Part shown: positions 40,271 to 50,051 of the stretch, piece by piece | Layout: every line of letters starts with the position of its first letter | Numbering within the stretch: position 1 is the first letter of the stretch | Assembly (NCBI GenBank): GCA_022508785.1 | Contig: JAFLUN010000004.1 | Location: 4,034-54,311 of the forward strand | Reading direction: 5' to 3' | DNA: 50,278 nucleotides | Source: Oscillospiraceae bacterium | GTDB lineage: Bacteria > Bacillota > Clostridia > Oscillospirales > Acutalibacteraceae | The notes under the pieces: generated by a model | What the model saw: the letters and a program-made list of their open reading frames with translations, nothing else | The model's database searches: none | Told to the model about the DNA's origin: nothing | Position numbers and translations under genes: made by a program

Positions 40271-40801
40271 TTATCTTCTATATTTCTTGATGTACCCTTC
40301 GATTGCCTTTTCAACAATTTCTATGGCACTTGTGACATCCTTTGCTTCGTCAACAACCGTTTCTTTATTTTCAAGGGTTTTATAAACTCTGAAAAAGTGC
40401 TTGATTTCCTCAAAAATATGCGAGGGAAGCTGGTCAATGTCTTTATAGCTGTTATACGTGGGGTCGCCAAAGGGAATTGCAATTATTTTATGGTCCGGAG
40501 CGCCGTTGTCAAGCATTGAAATTACGCCTATCGGATAACAGCGAACCAGCGTCATCGGCTCAATTTGCTCAGCGCAAAGCACCAAAGCGTCAAGAGGGTC
40601 GTTATCCTCGGCATAAGTCAAAGGAATAAAGCCGTAATTTGCAGGGTAATGGGTTGAAGTGTGAAGAACACGGTCAAGCTTGAGCATACCCGTCTCTTTG
40701 TCCAGCTCATATTTCATTTTACTGCCCTTGCTGATTTCAATTACAACGTCAAAGGCATTTTGTTTAATTCTTTCACGGTTAATATCATGCCAAATATTCA
40801 T
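40271..40801 (-). CDS. ppa: Inorganic pyrophosphatase (family I)
   Basis: VVIEISKGSKMKYELDKETG, YPANYGFIPLTYAEDNDPLDALVL. Confidence 0.94.
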   Translation of the reverse strand: MNIWHDINRERIKQNAFDVVIEISKGSKMKYELDKETGMLKLDRVLHTSTHYPANYGFIPLTYAEDNDPLDALVLCAEQIEPMTLVRCYPIGVISMLDNGAPDHKIIAIPFGDPTYNSYKDIDQLPSHIFEEIKHFFRVYKTLENKETVVDEAKDVTSAIEIVEKAIEGYIKKYRR

Positions 40802-40805
40802 AAGC

Positions 40806-42257
40806 TTACACTCCTTTATGCTTTTCTATAAGCTCTTTCCTTATTTTCCAAAGCTTTTCGGAAAGGTCAACGTAATACGAATGGGGATTTTCAAACCGTT
40901 TTACCTCTTCCCAAAGAGTGTCGATTTGCTCTGAGCAGTAATCCCGAATTTCGCTGACAGAGGGTTCGGAATAAACGTATTCACCGCCCACATAAACGGG
41001 AACGAGCATTTCCCTTGCAACGAAATTTTCAACCTCTTTGCGCTTCCAGGTAAAATCAGGGTCAAAGAGCGTGTAGGGCTTTGACTCGTCAATGGTTTCA
41101 TCGTGAAGAGTTAATACGTCTGCAATAGCCTTGCCCGTGTCGCAGTCAAAAAGCCTGTAAAATTTCTTTGAATGAGGCGTATTTATCTTACTTACATTTT
41201 CGGAAAGGTTGATTTTCGGGATTATCTCCCCGTCCTTTTCAAGGGCGCAAAGCTTGTAAACTCCGCTGAAAAGCGGTGACGATGCAGAATTGATAAGCCT
41301 TTCGCCTACAATAAAGCAGTCCACCTTTGCCCCCTGGGAAATCATATCCGAAATAATATACTCGTCAAACGAGTTTGAAGCCGTTATCATACAGTCAGGG
41401 TACCCTGCTTCATTGAGCATTTTTCTAACCTTTTTTGAAAGATAAGTAATATCGCCCGAATCAATTCTTACGCTTACAGGGCGCTTGCCCATAGGCTTTA
41501 AAACATCGTTAAAGGCACGGATAGCATTGGGAACGCCGAAACGAACCGTGTCGTAGGTGTCCACAACAAAGGAGCAATTATCAGGGTAAAGACGGGCATA
41601 TTCGCAAAACGCCTCATACTCGGAATCAAACATTTCAACCCACGAGTGAATCATTGTATTGATACCGGGAATGTCAAAGGTTTTGCTTTGGCGAATACCC
41701 GATGTGCCGATACAACCGCCGATATACGCCGCCCTTGCGCCGAAATGCGCACCGTCGAAAGACGAGGCACGGCGTGTGCCAAACTCTGCCACATTTGTTC
41801 CCTTGGCAGCCCTAACAAGTCTGTTGGCTTTTGTAGCGATAAGACTTTGCTGATTCATAAATACAAGCAAAACCGTTTCAAGAAGCTGTGCCTGAACAAT
41901 AGGACCTCGCACTTTAATCAAAGGTTCGTTAGGGAAAACGGGAGTGCCCTCGGGAACTGCCCAAATGTCGCAGGAAAACTTGAAATTGCGAAGATAATCA
42001 ATAAACTCCTCCGAACAGCCCTGCGACAGAAGATACTGCAAATCCTCTTCCTTAAATTCATAACTGTTTATATAATCTATAATCTGAGAAAGCCCTGCAA
42101 ATATTGCAAAGCCGCCTTTGTCGGGAACTTTTCTGAAATATAAATCGAAATACGCAATTTCTTCGCCCTTACCGCAGCAAAGCCAACCGTTAGCTTGAGT
42201 GAGCTCGTAAAGCTCAGTCATCAGGGACAAATTATCATATTCTCTTGCATTGCTCAT
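40806..42257 (-). CDS. pncB: Nicotinate phosphoribosyltransferase
   Basis: LMTELYELTQANGWL, EFGTRRASSFDGAHFGARAAYIGGCIGTS, VRIDSGDI. Confidence 0.94.
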   Translation of the reverse strand: MSNAREYDNLSLMTELYELTQANGWLCCGKGEEIAYFDLYFRKVPDKGGFAIFAGLSQIIDYINSYEFKEEDLQYLLSQGCSEEFIDYLRNFKFSCDIWAVPEGTPVFPNEPLIKVRGPIVQAQLLETVLLVFMNQQSLIATKANRLVRAAKGTNVAEFGTRRASSFDGAHFGARAAYIGGCIGTSGIRQSKTFDIPGINTMIHSWVEMFDSEYEAFCEYARLYPDNCSFVVDTYDTVRFGVPNAIRAFNDVLKPMGKRPVSVRIDSGDITYLSKKVRKMLNEAGYPDCMITASNSFDEYIISDMISQGAKVDCFIVGERLINSASSPLFSGVYKLCALEKDGEIIPKINLSENVSKINTPHSKKFYRLFDCDTGKAIADVLTLHDETIDESKPYTLFDPDFTWKRKEVENFVAREMLVPVYVGGEYVYSEPSVSEIRDYCSEQIDTLWEEVKRFENPHSYYVDLSEKLWKIRKELIEKHKGV

Positions 42258-42274
42258 TGTTATCACTTCCTTTT

Positions 42275-42310: not shown

Positions 42311-42347
42311 AAATTTCATAAATAATCAGGTAAGTCCGGATATAAAA

Positions 42348-42377
42348 AAGACCCCATATATTGCTATATGAGGTCTT
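42348..42377 (-). terminator. Terminator of the VTC/DUF4956/Cthe_2159-like operon
   Basis: Minus strand AAAGACCTCATATA-GCAA-TATATGGGGTCTTTTTT. Confidence 0.8.
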
Positions 42378-42387
42378 TATGCATTTT

Positions 42388-44307
42388 TCAGCTCGCTTTA
42401 ATTTCTTCTGAGAGAGAGCCGACGGAAAGCGAATAGGTTTCGCCTTTAACTAAATCGGGAGTGCTCAGAATAACTACTTGAAATGAAAGCTCGGGGTTGT
42501 AAGAAATGAGCGTATTGCCCGATTTATCCTTTAACGTAATTTGTGTACCTGCGGCTTGATTGCCCACATTCACTGCCACAACACCTTGCTTGGAATCGCT
42601 GAAGGACTGCGCCATACCTGCCGCGCCCGTTCCGATAAACGTGCCGCCTGTAATTACACCGCTGACGTCATAATCCAAAGTGGCGGTGTCACCTTGCGTA
42701 GGTCCGCAGACGGTTATATTTCCGCCCGTTATCTCCAATGTGCCGTTTGCATCAATTCCGTCACCCGATGCTTTGACATATATCGTTCCGCCTGAAATTA
42801 CAATTGTGCCGTTGGAGGAAGAGCTTCCGCCGCCGGGTCCACCTTGACCTCCGGGACCTCCTTGACCTCCGCCGGGTCCGCCCTGACCGCCGGGTCCGCC
42901 CTGACCGCCTGGTCCACCCTGACCGCCGGGACCTCCCTGACCCCCGGGTCTGCCAAAGCTGTCATTCCCCCTCATTCCGCCAAAGCCGCTGGAATCCGTG
43001 CCGCCTGCAGCGTTAATGCCGTCATCCGTTGCAACGATTTTTATATTACCGCCTGCAATCTTGACATTGAGCGCTTCAAGTCCTTCGTAGCTTTCCGTAA
43101 TATTTATCGTTCCGGCGGTAATAGTCAGCGCTTCATCGGCGTGGAAGCCGTCATCCCCTGTTGCTATATTGAAGGTTCCGCCGTTGACAACGATAGTTCC
43201 GTTGGAATGAACGGCATCGTCTGCGCTGTCAACGGTGAATGTGCCGTCACTGATTAAAAGACTGCCTGCAACCTTTATACCCTTTATACTTGTTGAGCTG
43301 TCGGTAGTATTGGAAGAGGAATTAGAGGAAGGTCCTCTGTTTCCGCCCATAAATCCACCCATAAAACCGCCCCAAGAATCCGAGGTTTGCTTTGAGGCAT
43401 TGACGCTTCCTCCGCCCGATACTATATTGAAGCTTCCGCCCTCGATTTGCATAGTAGATTCAGCGCTTATGCCGTCTCCCTCGGCGGAAATGTCAAAGGT
43501 GCCGCTTGAAATATAAATATACCCAAGACTTTCGTCGTCGGAATTTTCCGAATGGATTCCGTCTTTGCCTGCATCTACAGTCAATGCAGTATTTGTAATT
43601 CTTATGCTGTCATTGGCGTCTAATCCGTGGGAAGCGGAATTGACGGTATAGGTTCCCCCTGCTAACACCAAATCGTCCTTGCACACTATTCCGTGACCTG
43701 CAGGTGAATTTACAGTAAGAGAGCCCGAACCGTTTAAGGTTAAATCGTCTTTAGCAAAAATTACTGCGTCAATGTTGTTTTCGTCAATTGCGGTAAAGGT
43801 TCCGCCGTTGGAAAGTGTATTTGTTGTGCCCTTTGCCAAAGTGACAAATGTCTTATCGGCATTTAATACGTATATCGGTGCAGAGGTTTCGCTGTTTATT
43901 GTAACTCCGTTTAAAATAAGCTGAGGTTTATCCTTATCCCCTGCGTTGACAATTATCATACCGTCATTAAGCGTTCCCGACAGAATATAGGTACCGTCAC
44001 CCGTTATGGTTGCCGTTGTGCCTGTTATTTGCACTGAGTTCGAGCTACAGGAAATGGAATTTCCGTTAAGCTTTATCTGTGTACCGTTGCTACCGTCTGC
44101 GTTCTCACTGCCTTCCGCTTTAAGATCACGGTTAGAAAACATATCGTCATCGGTTTTTGAAAAATCAACATCTACGGGTTCGGCGGTGTTGTTTTCATTG
44201 GAATTGTCCGCAAGTCCATTTTCACCGTTCTCTGTTCCCGTCTTGCCGCAGGCGGAAAATATAAGTAATATCGCCAAAATTATAGAAAACAACTTCATTT
44301 TTTTCAT
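42388..44307 (-). CDS. Carbohydrate-binding (Cthe_2159/DUF4353-like) beta-helix lipoprotein
   Basis: Lipobox IFSACG; repeated beta-helix turns (ISGGTIYVKASGDGIDANGTLEITGGNI, LTVDAGKDGIHSEN, FTVDSADDAVHSNGTIVVNGGTF); internal GGPGGQ repeat. Start placed at MKKMKLFS. Confidence 0.85.
   Translation of the reverse strand: MKKMKLFSIILAILLIFSACGKTGTENGENGLADNSNENNTAEPVDVDFSKTDDDMFSNRDLKAEGSENADGSNGTQIKLNGNSISCSSNSVQITGTTATITGDGTYILSGTLNDGMIIVNAGDKDKPQLILNGVTINSETSAPIYVLNADKTFVTLAKGTTNTLSNGGTFTAIDENNIDAVIFAKDDLTLNGSGSLTVNSPAGHGIVCKDDLVLAGGTYTVNSASHGLDANDSIRITNTALTVDAGKDGIHSENSDDESLGYIYISSGTFDISAEGDGISAESTMQIEGGSFNIVSGGGSVNASKQTSDSWGGFMGGFMGGNRGPSSNSSSNTTDSSTSIKGIKVAGSLLISDGTFTVDSADDAVHSNGTIVVNGGTFNIATGDDGFHADEALTITAGTINITESYEGLEALNVKIAGGNIKIVATDDGINAAGGTDSSGFGGMRGNDSFGRPGGQGGPGGQGGPGGQGGPGGQGGPGGGQGGPGGQGGPGGGSSSSNGTIVISGGTIYVKASGDGIDANGTLEITGGNITVCGPTQGDTATLDYDVSGVITGGTFIGTGAAGMAQSFSDSKQGVVAVNVGNQAAGTQITLKDKSGNTLISYNPELSFQVVILSTPDLVKGETYSLSVGSLSEEIKAS
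42828..42953 (-). repeat. In-frame 18-bp tandem repeat encoding GGPGGQ units
   Basis: Translated RPGGQGGPGGQGGPGGQGGPGGQGGPGGGQGGPGGQGGPGGG. Confidence 0.9.
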
Positions 44308-44320
44308 AGAAAAATTCTCC

Positions 44321-45016
44321 TTATAGCTCCGCAGTCGAATTATCCTGCTTTGAAACGGTGATTTCAAGATTTCCGTTTCTGCAGCGAATTTTGTCAATCA
44401 TTTCTTTTTCTTTTTTGGGATCTTTTAAAGAAATACTGTAAGTAAGACGGAACATACTGCCCATATTCGTGCTTTTTACACGCTCTAACTCATAGTCAGA
44501 GGTGTATTCGGAGAAAATATCGTCAAATACTTCTGAATAGTCTAAATCCTCGGGAATTGTAACATTTAAGGTTTTGTATTTTGCGGCATTTTTCTTTGTT
44601 CCGAAATCAAGATGACTGCAAAGTATGAACACGGCACACATAATGACCGTAAACAGAACGGAAAAGCCAAGATAACCCATACCTACTATAAGTCCGGTGC
44701 CCATTGCGAGAAACAGCGCACATATCTCCTTTGCCGTACCGGGAGCTGAGCGGAAGCGGACAAGCCCGAACGCTCCTGCAACTGCAACGCCCGTTCCGAT
44801 ATTTCCGTTAACCATCATAATGACAACGCACACAACGGCAGGCAGTACCGCAAGTGTTACAACAAAGCTCTTTGTGTATCTTGTTCGGTACATATAGGAA
44901 AGCGCCATAACAGCCCCCAGCACCAAAGAAAATCCAAGACACAAAAGAAAATTCGTAACGCTGATATGAGCGGCGGTTGCCGAGTCAAAAAGTCCTTTAA
45001 ATAATGAATCAAGCAT
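44321..45016 (-). CDS. DUF4956 multi-pass membrane protein
   Basis: Several TM segments and GTGVAVAGAFGLVRFRSAPGTAKEICALFLAMGTGLIVGMGYLG; cytoplasmic C-terminal domain. Confidence 0.85.
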   Translation of the reverse strand: MLDSLFKGLFDSATAAHISVTNFLLCLGFSLVLGAVMALSYMYRTRYTKSFVVTLAVLPAVVCVVIMMVNGNIGTGVAVAGAFGLVRFRSAPGTAKEICALFLAMGTGLIVGMGYLGFSVLFTVIMCAVFILCSHLDFGTKKNAAKYKTLNVTIPEDLDYSEVFDDIFSEYTSDYELERVKSTNMGSMFRLTYSISLKDPKKEKEMIDKIRCRNGNLEITVSKQDNSTAEL

Positions 45017-45731
45017 ATTTCTTTTCCTCCTGATGTTGCTTGTTGTAAATCAATTTTTCATAAGCCGTTCCGTATTTTGAAAACGAGGTTTTGTATATTT
45101 TCTCTTCCGATAAAAAATGCGCCATCCATATTGGAATCCCTCCCGAGCATTTAATTTCCATAAGAATTTTACCATCATCGAGTATCGGAGTGCCCCACAC
45201 GTCAGCTTCAAGGGACAGGTCTTCCTCGCGGCACAGAATCGTATCGTCAAAGGTAACGCGAAAATCGTCGCCGTTTAAGGAGTAAAATGCCTCTCGCTCG
45301 TATGAGAGAAACGCCACGGGGTGCAGAGTTTTGTAATAGGACAGAAAATAATCAATTTCATTTGAAATCTGTGTTTGCTTTTTAAAGGAATACCTGCCCT
45401 GCACCCAATTCATCGCCGATTCTTCGGAAAGAGATATACGCCTTTTGTAAACAATGGAATCGTATTTCTTTTTTACTTCAACGAACACCGTGCTTTGAGG
45501 CTTTGCGCGGTTATAACTTCTTATGCGAAGCTTTTCTTTATATGTCGGTTTTTCAATAGATCTTCTGATAAGCCTGTAATTATCCGTGTCAAAATAAATA
45601 TTTCGGATAACCGTTCTCCCGTATTGATCTAACGCCATATACGGCTCCATTACTTTGAGCATCTTTTCTTTTTGCTCTTCCGTGATAATGTATTTCAGCT
45701 CGTAACGCTTAAAAACTGTTTGGTAAGCCAA
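45009..45731 (-). CDS. VTC-domain / polyphosphate polymerase-like protein (triphosphate tunnel fold)
   Basis: FKRYELKYIITEEQKEKML, IYFDTDNYRLIRRSIEKPTYKEKLRIRSYN, VFVEVKKKYDSIVYKRRI, ILMEIKCSGGIPIWMAHFL. Confidence 0.87.
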   Translation of the reverse strand: MAYQTVFKRYELKYIITEEQKEKMLKVMEPYMALDQYGRTVIRNIYFDTDNYRLIRRSIEKPTYKEKLRIRSYNRAKPQSTVFVEVKKKYDSIVYKRRISLSEESAMNWVQGRYSFKKQTQISNEIDYFLSYYKTLHPVAFLSYEREAFYSLNGDDFRVTFDDTILCREEDLSLEADVWGTPILDDGKILMEIKCSGGIPIWMAHFLSEEKIYKTSFSKYGTAYEKLIYNKQHQEEKKYA

Positions 45732-45910
45732 TTACAACGCCCCTTTCATAAGGGAATATAATCTTTGAAACTTAATTCAAACTAAAAATTCAAAAAAATA
45801 TTTTAAAATTTATTTTATAATTTTTAAGCTTCAGTTAATGTTTTGCTGATAACCTATTTATAAATTAAAAAGTCTATGGTAAAATTGATAATCGGAAAGG
45901 ATTGGTATAT

Positions 45911-46582
45911 TTGAGAATTTTACTTGCCGAAGATGAACGCCCTCTTGCGAGAGCACTTTTAAAAATCTTTGAAAAAAGCAATTACTCCGCCGATGCGGTA
46001 CACAACGGCGAAGATGCTTTGGCGTATATTGAATCCGGCAATTATGATGTTGCCGTTTTAGATATAATGATGCCGAAAATGGACGGAATAACCGTGCTAA
46101 AGAATGTGAGAGCGCAAGGAAATTCAATTCCCATACTCATTCTTACGGCAAAATCCGAAATTGACGACAAGGTGCTGGGTCTTGACAGCGGAGCAAATTA
46201 CTATCTTACAAAGCCCTTTGATTCAAAGGAACTGCTGGCCTCTATCCGCGCTATAACCAGAAGCGGAACTGCGGCAGATTCAAAGCTCACTTTCGGAAAT
46301 ATCACCCTTGACAGGGCTACTTATGAATTATCATCGGCAACGGGCAGTTTCCGCTTGGCAAACCGTGAATTTCAAATGATGGAGATGTTTATGTCGAATC
46401 CGCACCGTATTATCCCTGCCGAACGCTTTATGGAAAACATTTGGGGCTTTGACAGCGAGGCGGATATAAGCGTTGTTTGGGTATATATTTCATATCTTCG
46501 CAAAAAGCTGACGGCGCTGGAGGCAAATATTCAAATTAAAGCGTCAAGAAATGCCGGGTATTCGCTGGAGGAATTAGCGTGA
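45911..46582 (+). CDS. OmpR-family response regulator
   Basis: LRILLAEDERPLARALLKIFE, VAVLDIMMPKMDGITVL, LTAKSEIDDKVLGLDSGANYYLTKPFDSKELLASIRA; winged helix. TTG start at 45911 fits the GGAAAGGA SD better than 45902. Confidence 0.93.
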   Translation: MRILLAEDERPLARALLKIFEKSNYSADAVHNGEDALAYIESGNYDVAVLDIMMPKMDGITVLKNVRAQGNSIPILILTAKSEIDDKVLGLDSGANYYLTKPFDSKELLASIRAITRSGTAADSKLTFGNITLDRATYELSSATGSFRLANREFQMMEMFMSNPHRIIPAERFMENIWGFDSEADISVVWVYISYLRKKLTALEANIQIKASRNAGYSLEELA

Positions 46583-46729
46583 AAAATCACGCTAATGAAT
46601 TGTATGTCCCTCAAAATTTGTATAAGACAAATTTTGAGATGGACGAAATTACCATCACGTCTTGTCCGGCTACGCAAGAATTAAAAGTGATGTTCAAAAC
46701 TATTTGTAGCCGGAAAGACTATGGTAATT
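46573..46729 (+). promoter_or_regulatory. Strongly palindromic spacer between response regulator and kinase (candidate cis-regulatory RNA or interspersed repeat)
   Basis: Three consecutive inverted repeats: ATTAGCGTGA/TCACGCTAAT; GTCCCTCAAAATTTGT/ACAAATTTTGAG(AT)GGAC; AATTACCAT...GTCCGGCTAC/GTAGCCGGA...ATGGTAATT. Confidence 0.65.
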
Positions 46730-47962
46730 ATTATGATACGAAAGCTTAAAATAAAATTTATAGTTTTATCTACGATTTCCATTTTTTTGCTTCTCTTGAC
46801 CGTTGTATTCGGAATGAATGTGCTCAATTATAATTCAGTCGTCAGAGAGGCTGATAATACCTTGTCACTGCTTTCACAGAACAAAGGCGTTTTTCCCGAC
46901 TTTGAAGGCAACAGGGGTGACCGCCTTCCGCCTCATATGTCCCCTGAGTTACCCTTTGAATCAAGGTATTTTTCCGTTCTCTTTAATGACAGCGGTGAGG
47001 TTATGTGGGTAGATACCGGCAAAATTTTCTCGGTAGATGCTGACAGCGCCGTTGAATATGCCAATAGCGTTATGGAAAAGGACAGCGAACGGGGATTTAT
47101 CGGAGAGTTTAGGTATACACGCACGGCTGAGGGCGACGGTGTGCGAGTTACTTTTCTTGACTGCGGTCGGCAGTTAAACTCTTATTACAGATTTTTAATA
47201 ATAAGCATTATTATGGCTTTGGCAGGATTTATAATCGTCTTTTTGGTAATTTCATTCTTCTCGGGTAAATTTATCCGCCCAATTTCGGAAAGCTATGAAA
47301 AGCAGAAGCGGTTTATTACGGATGCAGGACACGAAATAAAAACGCCTTTAACCATTATCAATGCCAATGTTGATGTTTTGGAAATGGATATGGGCAAAAA
47401 TGAATGTTTAGAGGACATTCGTCAGCAGGCGGAACGCCTTACTGTTCTTACAAATGATTTGGTATATTTGGCACGCATGGAAGAGGCGGAAAACACTCTT
47501 CAAATGATTGAATTTCCCGTTTCCGAGGTAGTGTCAGAGACGGCAGAGCCCTTTAAGACGCTTTCCGCAACGCAAGGCAAGGAATTTATATGTAATGTTC
47601 AGCCGATGCTGTCTATGCGCGGAAATTACAAGGCGATTCAGCAGTTGGTGTCAATCCTTATGGACAACGCTTTGAAATATTCCCCCTCAGGCGGAACGGT
47701 GGCGCTTGATTTCGCACGGCAAAACAAAAATCTTGTTTTAACGGTATCTAATACGACGGATTCTGTAATTACAGCCGAAAATCTTAATCATATATTTGAT
47801 AGGTTTTACCGAACCGACCCCTCCCGCAATTCAGAAACAGGCGGTCACGGCATAGGGCTTTCGGTAGCAAAGGCTATAGTTACGGCACACGGCGGTAAAA
47901 TCAGCGCTTCTGTTAAGGACGGAAACGCCTTCCAAATCACCGCAGTATTGCCTGTTCAATAA
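46721..47962 (+). CDS. Sensor histidine kinase
   Basis: Two TMs, DAGHEIKTPLTIINANVDVLEMD (H box), DNALKYSPSGG (N box), GGHGIGLSVAKAIVTAHGG (G box). Confidence 0.93.
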   Translation: MVIIMIRKLKIKFIVLSTISIFLLLLTVVFGMNVLNYNSVVREADNTLSLLSQNKGVFPDFEGNRGDRLPPHMSPELPFESRYFSVLFNDSGEVMWVDTGKIFSVDADSAVEYANSVMEKDSERGFIGEFRYTRTAEGDGVRVTFLDCGRQLNSYYRFLIISIIMALAGFIIVFLVISFFSGKFIRPISESYEKQKRFITDAGHEIKTPLTIINANVDVLEMDMGKNECLEDIRQQAERLTVLTNDLVYLARMEEAENTLQMIEFPVSEVVSETAEPFKTLSATQGKEFICNVQPMLSMRGNYKAIQQLVSILMDNALKYSPSGGTVALDFARQNKNLVLTVSNTTDSVITAENLNHIFDRFYRTDPSRNSETGGHGIGLSVAKAIVTAHGGKISASVKDGNAFQITAVLPVQ

Positions 47963-48092: not shown

Positions 48093-50009
48093 TTAATCAT
48101 CTATACTCAACACTTCTAAAAGTAAATCTTCATTCCAATCTCGAAGAATGTGTTTTGTAAAGAGCCGTTGAAGTTGATTCATTCGATTAGAGAATGGATA
48201 TATGCTGTTTTTAACATCAATCCGAATCATATCGCTCATTATGTTAATATTGTTAGATAGTGTAGATAGTTCTTGCGAAGAACACAAATGTTTTCTGTAC
48301 GATTCGACCAATTCGGGGCAATTGGCATCCAATAATCCCGCTAAATCATTGTATTCTTGTATAATGCCAAACATGGGAGAAAAATAATATGTAATCTTTT
48401 TATCAAAAGGATTCAGTGAGACATGGTTGAAGAAATCAACATCAATAATAGCTCCATGTATGCGACCGCTTCCACCAAAAGATTTTATTGCACTTGATAT
48501 TTTCTCCTGCGCCGCCCTATATGGTTCAAGTCGCTGGATGTAAATGTTGATCATTCGCAGAAAATCATTTTGAAATTTTGTAATATCTGTGCATTTACTG
48601 ACAGTTCGAATACTTCCGCCAATACAGATGTAAGTTGCCTTTCGACCAATAAGAAAAAATCCATAATACCCTTTTTCTTTAATCACATATAAACGAGCAC
48701 CATACTGCTCAATTTGGTGTTTAATCGTACCACAACCCTTTATCCATTCATCTGTGAACGAGTAAAACTGCATATATTCCCTAGTAGTTGTCTCATATAC
48801 GCCATCAGGCAAAGAAGCATATGGGTTGAAGTCTTTGTGCAGAAGTGCTTTCTTAAAAATAATCTTTTTATTTTTATAGCCAATCTGATTGTCTGAAATA
48901 ATCTGAGCATTATTTTCATCAATCAAATATCTTATATTTCTATGGGTGTGTCCTGAAAAATACGCACAGTTGCAATCCTCTACTGGCTTAGATTTCCAAT
49001 CCATCAAAGGATTATGTGTCAAGACTATCAGATAGCATTGTTTTTTCTTTGCTATCTGGATAGCATTCTCATACTCTTTCATCCACTTTTTAGTTTCTTC
49101 AATTTCCTCTTGTCTCGTCAAAGCACCTTGATAAATTCCATCATCAGCATTAAACTGTAAGTTCTGACCTGCGAATCCAACACCACCAACAATTACTGCA
49201 TTATGGTAAAAACTCATTTGACTGTCATATAGCTCCGAATCCTCTTGAATGTCCTTTGCAGGAAATTGGCTTCCATAGAGCCATTGAGCCTTATTATTGT
49301 GAAGAAAACAGATACCAAGTCGGCAAAATAACTCACGATAAGCATTTACACATGAAACAACGGAATCAAAATCCCAAAATTCATGATTTCCTAATATAGC
49401 ATAAATACTACGTTTTTTGATTGTACGGCTATTCTGTCGCCTATGATATTCCTTTATATTATATTCCAAATATGATATGTCTTTTTTTAGTTCGATTATA
49501 TCTTCTGGAAAATCAGTATTGGCACACTCATTAGGGTGTGCTTCCATCCACTTATCTACTGCATATTTTCGCTCCTCTAAATCCGCAACTATGCTTTCAT
49601 ATTTCAACTTTGCCAGATAATCCCAATGTTCAACAAACTCCTTAAAAAACATCTCTGCAATTGGAAATGACGAAGATATATCTCCACCAAAGAGAACGAT
49701 GGGATTCTTAAACATATTGACATCAATAAGAAAATCACCTTCAAACAATCCATGCACAATTGAGTGGATATATGTTACAACATCTTCATCAGTAGCACCA
49801 TTTGGAAAAGCATATAGTATATGATGAACTAAATGAATATCACTTATGTAATATATAGTACTATCAAACCTACTAAAAGATTCTGTGTTTTCTATGGTAG
49901 CAAGTGTTAATGAATTGTTTTCATTTTCAATCAATGATGAGTAAGATCCCTGTTCATTTGAAATTGATAATGATTTTGAAAATTGAAGACACTTATCATA
50001 CAAATCCAT
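48093..50009 (-). CDS. Large calcineurin-like metallophosphoesterase with C-terminal domain of unknown function
   Basis: YISDIHLVHH, IVLFGGDIS, YAILGNHEFWD, IVLTHNPLMD, YFSGHTHRN. Start moved to MDLYDKC after GAGGTGAG. Confidence 0.8.
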   Translation of the reverse strand: MDLYDKCLQFSKSLSISNEQGSYSSLIENENNSLTLATIENTESFSRFDSTIYYISDIHLVHHILYAFPNGATDEDVVTYIHSIVHGLFEGDFLIDVNMFKNPIVLFGGDISSSFPIAEMFFKEFVEHWDYLAKLKYESIVADLEERKYAVDKWMEAHPNECANTDFPEDIIELKKDISYLEYNIKEYHRRQNSRTIKKRSIYAILGNHEFWDFDSVVSCVNAYRELFCRLGICFLHNNKAQWLYGSQFPAKDIQEDSELYDSQMSFYHNAVIVGGVGFAGQNLQFNADDGIYQGALTRQEEIEETKKWMKEYENAIQIAKKKQCYLIVLTHNPLMDWKSKPVEDCNCAYFSGHTHRNIRYLIDENNAQIISDNQIGYKNKKIIFKKALLHKDFNPYASLPDGVYETTTREYMQFYSFTDEWIKGCGTIKHQIEQYGARLYVIKEKGYYGFFLIGRKATYICIGGSIRTVSKCTDITKFQNDFLRMINIYIQRLEPYRAAQEKISSAIKSFGGSGRIHGAIIDVDFFNHVSLNPFDKKITYYFSPMFGIIQEYNDLAGLLDANCPELVESYRKHLCSSQELSTLSNNINIMSDMIRIDVKNSIYPFSNRMNQLQRLFTKHILRDWNEDLLLEVLSIDD

Positions 50010-50051
50010 ACAACTCACCTCTTTGTCCACATTATTAACAAGATGCATGAC

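Follow-up and report, generated by a model that had tools for sequence, protein, structure and literature searches.

A VTC-type tunnel enzyme gene paired with DUF4956 in a probably co-regulated module of gut Clostridia: a candidate phosphate-polymer system

The DNA analyzed here, referred to as the window, comprises 50,278 nucleotides of contig JAFLUN010000004.1 (positions 4,034 to 54,311) of an Oscillospiraceae bacterium, whose 1.73-Mb assembly (GCA_022508785.1) is 92% complete. On its minus strand lie three genes, encoding a VTC-domain protein (45009-45731, 240 amino acids, TTG start), a DUF4956 membrane protein (44321-45016, 231 amino acids) and a beta-helix lipoprotein of the Cthe_2159 family (42388-44307, 639 amino acids, lipobox FSAC). 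The first two genes overlap by 8 nucleotides (45009-45016), the lipoprotein gene begins with an ATG at position 44307, 13 nucleotides past the DUF4956 stop codon and behind the Shine-Dalgarno sequence AAGGAG, and an intrinsic terminator with a 14-bp stem and a T tail (42347-42378, minus strand) is common to the three genes. A longer lipoprotein reading frame starting with TTG at 44397 was rejected as a mechanical extension, since the ATG at 44307 sits behind a good ribosome-binding site. A sequence-only reading had proposed a single operon of three tightly packed genes with one terminator, which was confirmed with unchanged coordinates. Its limits (42388-45731) were too narrow, however, as they missed the adjacent two-component system and an operator. 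The module consists of five genes, the operon and the divergently transcribed genes of an OmpR-family response regulator (45902-46582, plus strand) and its cognate sensor histidine kinase with an extracytoplasmic sensor domain (46721-47962, plus strand), and it also includes the operator/promoter region at 45755-45839. In related loci, the 8-nucleotide overlap between VTC and DUF4956 is conserved in 36 of 76 cases, and among the 73 loci having enough downstream sequence there are 59 in which no more than 3 kb separate DUF4956 from a Cthe_2159 gene. The three-gene arrangement is not due to chance. In the 49 fully flanked loci, VTC was present in 49, Cthe_2159 in 41 and the response regulator with the histidine kinase in 30, while no further neighbour gene recurred in more than 9 of 80 loci and no RNA families were found at the locus.

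VTC and DUF4956 almost certainly form an exclusive functional pair. When each family was searched separately, both were found in the identical 26 of 59 relatives, with agreeing copy numbers except for one truncated extra VTC, and among 300 genomes drawn evenly across the phylum the identical 46 carried VTC and DUF4956 with no discordant case, although these genomes are related and the counts hence do not represent independent events. The co-occurrence expected from the sequence-only reading was thus without exception in two genome samples. The two genes stand side by side except in two genomes, one in which they are approximately 2 kb apart and one in which they are split over contigs, both genes being located there near contig starts. 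Within the genus, the pair is present in 14 of 36 genomes, the two genes always being present or absent together. In 14 well-known control genomes the occurrence of both genes likewise coincides, the three carriers being a Bacteroides, Corynebacterium glutamicum and Methanosarcina acetivorans. VTC adjoins DUF4956 in 80/80 named loci, none of which revealed a fusion of the two. The protein distances of VTC and DUF4956 are correlated (Spearman 0.69), compared to 0.87 for the response regulator and the kinase as a positive control and 0.17-0.46 for the other pairs of the module. A DUF4956-VTC pair was also observed on two contigs of rumen Methanomethylophilaceae (L071 and L072), the former of which additionally has Cthe_2159. 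A transfer to archaea is possible, but these are short contigs of metagenome-assembled genomes and contamination could also explain the finding.

The VTC protein matches PF09359 over its full length (E-value 3.6e-42, domain positions 1-234 of 235) and its AlphaFold2 model reached a predicted local distance difference test value (pLDDT) of 94.3. In a Foldseek comparison of this model with the PDB, the top 13 matches were all Vtc4, Vtc3 and Vtc2 structures (best match E-value 4.7e-15; template modelling score 0.73 to 3g3r), with CYTH-type proteins next. Residues were mapped on native Vtc4 numbering (8i6v), the C-terminal part by a motif alignment made by eye. Vtc4 R196, K200, R264, R266, K281, K294, R361, R373, E426, K428 and K458 correspond to R9, K13, R69, R71, K87, K96, R146, R158, E192, K194 and K219 of VTC, all of which are invariant in 65/65 homologues, and Vtc4 Y359 corresponds to Y144, which is kept in 62 of the 65. 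The idea of a VTC-like polymerase was thereby strengthened, as the catalytic Arg/Lys/Glu residues of the tunnel are retained, among them the equivalents of R264, R266 and E426, the residues mutated for inactivating yeast VTC (PMC9911596). On the other hand, the fold of the triphosphate tunnel metalloenzymes (TTM) supports many activities, and TTM hydrolases possess four glutamates where Vtc4 has basic residues (PMC4641920). It is conceivable that VTC is a tunnel hydrolase or nucleotide-processing enzyme resembling tripolyphosphatases, whose small product serves as a signal or substrate for DUF4956. Besides the diversity of the fold, two positions agree with such an activity: the Vtc4 tunnel residue K455 is replaced by S216, and the invariant E11, at the position of the hydrolase Glu-4, keeps one acidic-patch glutamate that is absent from Vtc4. 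By contrast, the equivalents of Glu-2 and Glu-171, two of the three glutamate positions of metal site 2, are basic as in Vtc4 (R9 and K194; 65/65), the equivalent of AtTTM3 Glu-90 being not placed, and the fold comparison ranks Vtc4, Vtc3 and Vtc2 above every CYTH hydrolase. The acidic-patch pattern with two basic residues and one acidic residue leans to a polymerase without proving it, and a hydrolase appears unlikely. In bacteria, the making of polyphosphate is commonly attributed to PPK1 and PPK2, neither of which was detected in any of the 36 genus genomes examined. Because the catalytic residues of Vtc4 are kept, Vtc4 is the best match of the model and the genus is devoid of PPK1 and PPK2, it is plausible that this presumably cytosolic triphosphate-tunnel enzyme is a polyphosphate-type polymerase, and we consider this somewhat more probable than not.

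The putative membrane partner matches PF16316 (E-value 9.9e-17), and its AlphaFold2 model (pLDDT 83.6) contains five predicted membrane helices and a C-terminal ferredoxin/ACT-like domain. Loop charges, interpreted by the positive-inside rule, gave a topology with the N-terminus outside and the C-terminus inside. The basic loop RFRSAPGTAKE (residues 87-97; 44726-44758, minus strand), for which a mean of 3.0 lysine or arginine residues was calculated, is predicted to lie on the cytosolic side, facing VTC. The conservation of this segment, pointed out already in the sequence-only reading, holds for R87 and R89, which together with G81, A82 and G108 are the only residues invariant in both DUF4956 types described below. 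As judged by profile similarity, DUF4956 is distantly related to MgtC. The MgtC/SapB family (PF02308) was the second Pfam family for DUF4956, 14 of 25 members matching weakly (best E-value 0.0013) and below its curated cut-off, and hhalign aligned both families over 193 columns (E-value 5.5e-6, probability 85.7) with a score of 45.3 versus a maximum of 32.5 in 30 block-shuffled controls. The signal is strong with type B of DUF4956 and weak with type A alone. The families also have the layout of helices plus an ACT-like domain in common, and searches of the PDB and viral fold libraries with the DUF4956 model yielded only matches to ferredoxin/ACT-like domains, including the C-terminal domain of MgtC (2lqj, E-value 0.031). 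MgtC itself is encoded by a separate gene elsewhere in the window genome; to our knowledge it is not a known channel, and we know of no VTC partner for it. The homologue of Streptococcus intermedius has already been labelled MgtC plus ACT (PMC12345266).

These properties have consequences for the comparison with the yeast VTC complex (Vtc4/Vtc3/Vtc1). The tunnel polymerase domains of both systems are homologous and contain the catalytic Arg/Lys/Glu set, and the polymerase is coupled to a membrane part in yeast and presumably also in the window. The window VTC, however, possesses neither an SPX domain, for which no Pfam match was obtained in VTC or DUF4956, nor fused membrane helices, the two parts being encoded by separate genes, and its partner is the MgtC-like DUF4956. 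A common origin of DUF4956 and the membrane part of the yeast complex (Vtc1/DUF202 or the membrane part of Vtc4) was examined and rejected, as neither Pfam nor sequence comparison with the PDB gave a match. The earlier analogy of DUF4956 to the yeast channel was not supported, the resemblance being to MgtC with an ACT-like domain. Translocation of a polymer by DUF4956 is doubtful in our estimation. A comparably doubtful alternative assigns DUF4956 the role of a regulator or of an anchor in the membrane rather than of a conduit, working through protein contact in the manner of MgtC: its ACT-like domain would sense a cytosolic ligand and switch VTC on at the membrane, polyphosphate would remain in the cell and buffer ATP and phosphate or metals during envelope stress, and the lipoprotein would be an independent product of the regulon that acts at the surface. 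In line with this are, besides the MgtC relationship and the C-terminal domain, the lack of an export-like fold among the matches of DUF4956 and the report that MgtC acts on PhoR and ATP synthase rather than transporting (PMC12345266 and references therein). It fits less well that the third protein of the operon is extracytoplasmic in the Cthe_2159 and CotH families alike, as would suit an outward function, and that the basic loop faces VTC as expected of a polyanion path.

CotH proteins had been thought to accompany this gene set as a rule, which is wrong for the subtype of the window. Alignment A1 splits DUF4956 into type A (VNGNIGAGVAVAGAFSLVRFRSAPG), to which the window protein belongs, and type B (SLGMVGALSIVRFRTAIKD), which are clearly homologous (E-value 9.6e-25). 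Type A goes with Cthe_2159 (59/73 testable loci) and type B with CotH; one distant type A locus, L164, has CotH instead of Cthe_2159. Since the window genome contains no CotH gene, CotH was excluded as a part of its system. Adjacency of VTC, DUF4956 and CotH to Pel genes has been published (PMC7112168), and the accessory genes cotH-PPP-DUF4956 from Pel loci of Gram-positive bacteria (SIR_1592-1594; PMC7112168, PMC12345266) share with the window a VTC and a DUF4956 gene beside an extracytoplasmic protein, but they contain the other DUF4956 subtype, have CotH in place of Cthe_2159 and are tied to the Pel operon. According to PMC12345266, the combination of CotH, VTC and DUF4956 is confined to Pel loci. 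This has to be corrected, because two type B loci of the same genus (L152 and L153) show the order VTC-DUF4956-CotH-unknown (759 amino acids)-HEAT-GT2 outside such loci. The same gene order was reported for NELoc-2 of Clostridium perfringens (PMC2879425), where VTC likewise lies beside a membrane protein of approximately 225 amino acids, albeit with two pairs, in a CotH and GT2 context and without Cthe_2159. Judging from gene order and length, the NELoc-2 proteins of 222-226 amino acids annotated as 'tubulin/FtsZ' are probably misannotated DUF4956 proteins.

The third protein of the operon belongs to the Cthe_2159 family (PF14262, E-value 6.1e-101; solved relative 4peu, E-value 8.6e-35), and a lipobox is present in 42 of 61 homologues. 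Its mature form is strongly acidic (pI approximately 4.1). The earlier suggestion that it holds a polyanion at the surface was thereby weakened: such holding would be possible only via bridging cations, polyphosphate binding without calcium or magnesium being unlikely, and the Cthe_2159 family has been reported as binding cellulose and polygalacturonate (PMC6712302). Binding of polygalacturonate would also suit a module for the modification or export of a surface glycan that bears phosphate, in which VTC and DUF4956 would supply phosphoryl groups to an exopolysaccharide or adhesion system and polyphosphate would not be the end product. That Pel loci (PMC7112168, PMC12345266) and the NELoc-2-like GT2/HEAT/CotH operon contain the CotH subtype, and that deletion of DUF4956 alters the Pel amount (PMC12345266), points in the same direction. 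Beside the window subtype, by contrast, no glycosyltransferase recurred in 80 loci, and we regard a glycan as quite unlikely to be the target. Orphan copies rule out that Cthe_2159 is exclusive to the module. Within the lipoprotein gene, an imperfect 18/36-bp tandem repeat (42830-42950) encodes a Gly/Pro/Gln-rich linker of the GGPGGQ type between beta-helix segments. In another locus (L168, 5604-9266), two genuine MgtC genes stand in tandem not far from a Cthe_2159 gene, which might represent a second association of MgtC-like and Cthe_2159 proteins.

A response regulator and a kinase of the window's kind were found within 4 kb of VTC in 30 of the 49 fully flanked loci, often in the order RR-HK-VTC-DUF4956-Cthe_2159 (RR, response regulator; HK, histidine kinase) on the same strand and sometimes divergent, as in the window. 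The density of response regulator genes is 0.073/kb near the module versus 0.020/kb farther off, and the sensor domain of the window kinase occurs in 41 of 46 nearby kinases while it is absent in five of six distal ones, the sixth being marginal. With up to one mismatch, the direct repeat TTTAAG-N5-TTTAAG was detected in 23 of 77 VTC promoters versus 1 of 617 control upstream regions, which were taken from other genes at the same loci (p 9e-23, a value ignoring relatedness among loci); with up to two mismatches, the counts were 40/77 and 16/617. In 25 of 36 cases with up to two mismatches, a -10 box follows 9-10 nucleotides after the repeat. Since motif and spacing match the published CiaR site with its 10-nucleotide distance to the -10 box (PMC3091779), the repeat is of the CiaR type. 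In the window, the repeat TTTTAG-TTTGA-ATTAAG (45771-45787, minus strand) deviates at two positions and is followed after 10 nucleotides by the -10 box TATATT (45755-45760, minus strand), while a second repeat with two mismatches, TTTAAG-CTTCA-GTTAAT (45823-45839, plus strand), faces the response regulator gene; a similar sequence exists in the closest relative, L031. The regulators themselves agree with this: 40 of 42 nearby ones match the recognition helix of CiaR at 6-10 of 13 positions, compared to 4-5 for typical unrelated regulators, with VVWVYISYLRKKL (the window sequence) or a close variant versus VVEVYVSKVRKKL in CiaR. The window regulator is identical at 9 of 13 positions, the comparison covering the recognition helix only. 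Four far-diverged type A loci of Bacillota (L159, L161, L162, L164) also combine a two-component system with a repeat of 0-2 mismatches, whereas the operator was not found at most CotH loci examined. It is very likely that a CiaRH-like two-component system controls the VTC module. In contrast to CiaRH of Streptococcus, with which it shares the direct repeat 10 nucleotides from the -10 box and a similar recognition helix, this system adjoins the VTC module and is apparently dedicated to it, both in numerous Clostridia and in some further Bacillota. A wider regulon in the window genome did not emerge, seven matches of repeat plus promoter standing against 15 for the reversed pattern.

Taken together, the data suggest a surface-associated system for a phosphate polymer that has not been described so far. 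Our favoured but tentative scheme, to which we give slightly less than an even chance, is a co-regulated five-gene module in which the CiaRH-like system would sense an envelope signal and activate the VTC operon through the TTTAAG-N5-TTTAAG repeat. VTC, a soluble Vtc4-type enzyme, would build polyphosphate or a comparable chain from the terminal phosphates of ATP molecules, functioning solely together with the five-helix DUF4956. The latter might use its cytosolic basic loop and its C-terminal domain for docking VTC to the membrane and for gating the product or passing it on, and the polymer would affect or reach the outer surface. There, the acidic lipoprotein may act as a partner outside the cytoplasm, holding the product or its counter-cations; alternatively, it could use the resulting surface for binding acidic glycans. 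Several observations weigh against this scheme. In S. intermedius, a mutant lacking SIR_1593, the VTC homologue of the Pel locus, had no aggregation phenotype, while deletion of DUF4956 or CotH did alter aggregation (PMC12345266). This is the main counter-evidence, as a silent VTC deletion argues against a simple chain from VTC via DUF4956 to a surface protein in that species. Moreover, the exchange of K455 and the presence of E11 depart from Vtc4, reports on the biochemistry of any bacterial VTC protein were not found in the literature searched, DUF4956 shows no detectable homology to Vtc1 or DUF202 and, as a model, matches no membrane protein in the PDB, and Cthe_2159 genes, whose product is acidic in the window, also occur without VTC. 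Finally, the window operator with its two mismatches has a chance probability of approximately 0.17 under a Markov model, so the case for the operator rests on the family.

A broader interpretation, which we consider improbable, is that VTC and the MgtC-like DUF4956 constitute a general bacterial two-part polyphosphate exporter feeding an extracytoplasmic phosphoryl store, with an interchangeable surface partner. In exopolysaccharide loci, a CotH-type secreted kinase could draw on this store, and in gut Clostridia, under the control of a CiaR-like system, the partner would be an acidic beta-helix lipoprotein with cations as bridges. In the literature, of which coverage was incomplete, no paper was found on the exclusive VTC-DUF4956 pairing, the triad with Cthe_2159, the attached two-component system or the operator. 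A genus of gut Clostridia without PPK1 and PPK2 keeps, in some members, a Vtc4-like enzyme that is always tied to DUF4956. The pair is a defined unit for asking whether a prokaryotic VTC makes polyphosphate and what DUF4956 and MgtC-like proteins do, and with both kinases absent, the host lineage offers a clean background for such tests, while the operator and the two-component system provide a handle for switching the module on and finding its signal.

Some neighbouring genes were noted as well. Past the terminator and on the same strand, positions 40271-42266 contain genes named, from their translations only, inorganic pyrophosphatase-like and nicotinate phosphoribosyltransferase-like, which rarely neighbour the module in other loci. 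Beyond the histidine kinase gene, a 651-amino acid metallophosphoesterase-domain protein of odd architecture and without an NCBIfam match is encoded at 48093-50048. In three other loci (L045, L049 and L103), genes for a secreted Gly/Pro-rich protein (approximately 413 amino acids in L049) and a membrane protein of approximately 180 amino acids are located downstream of the triad.

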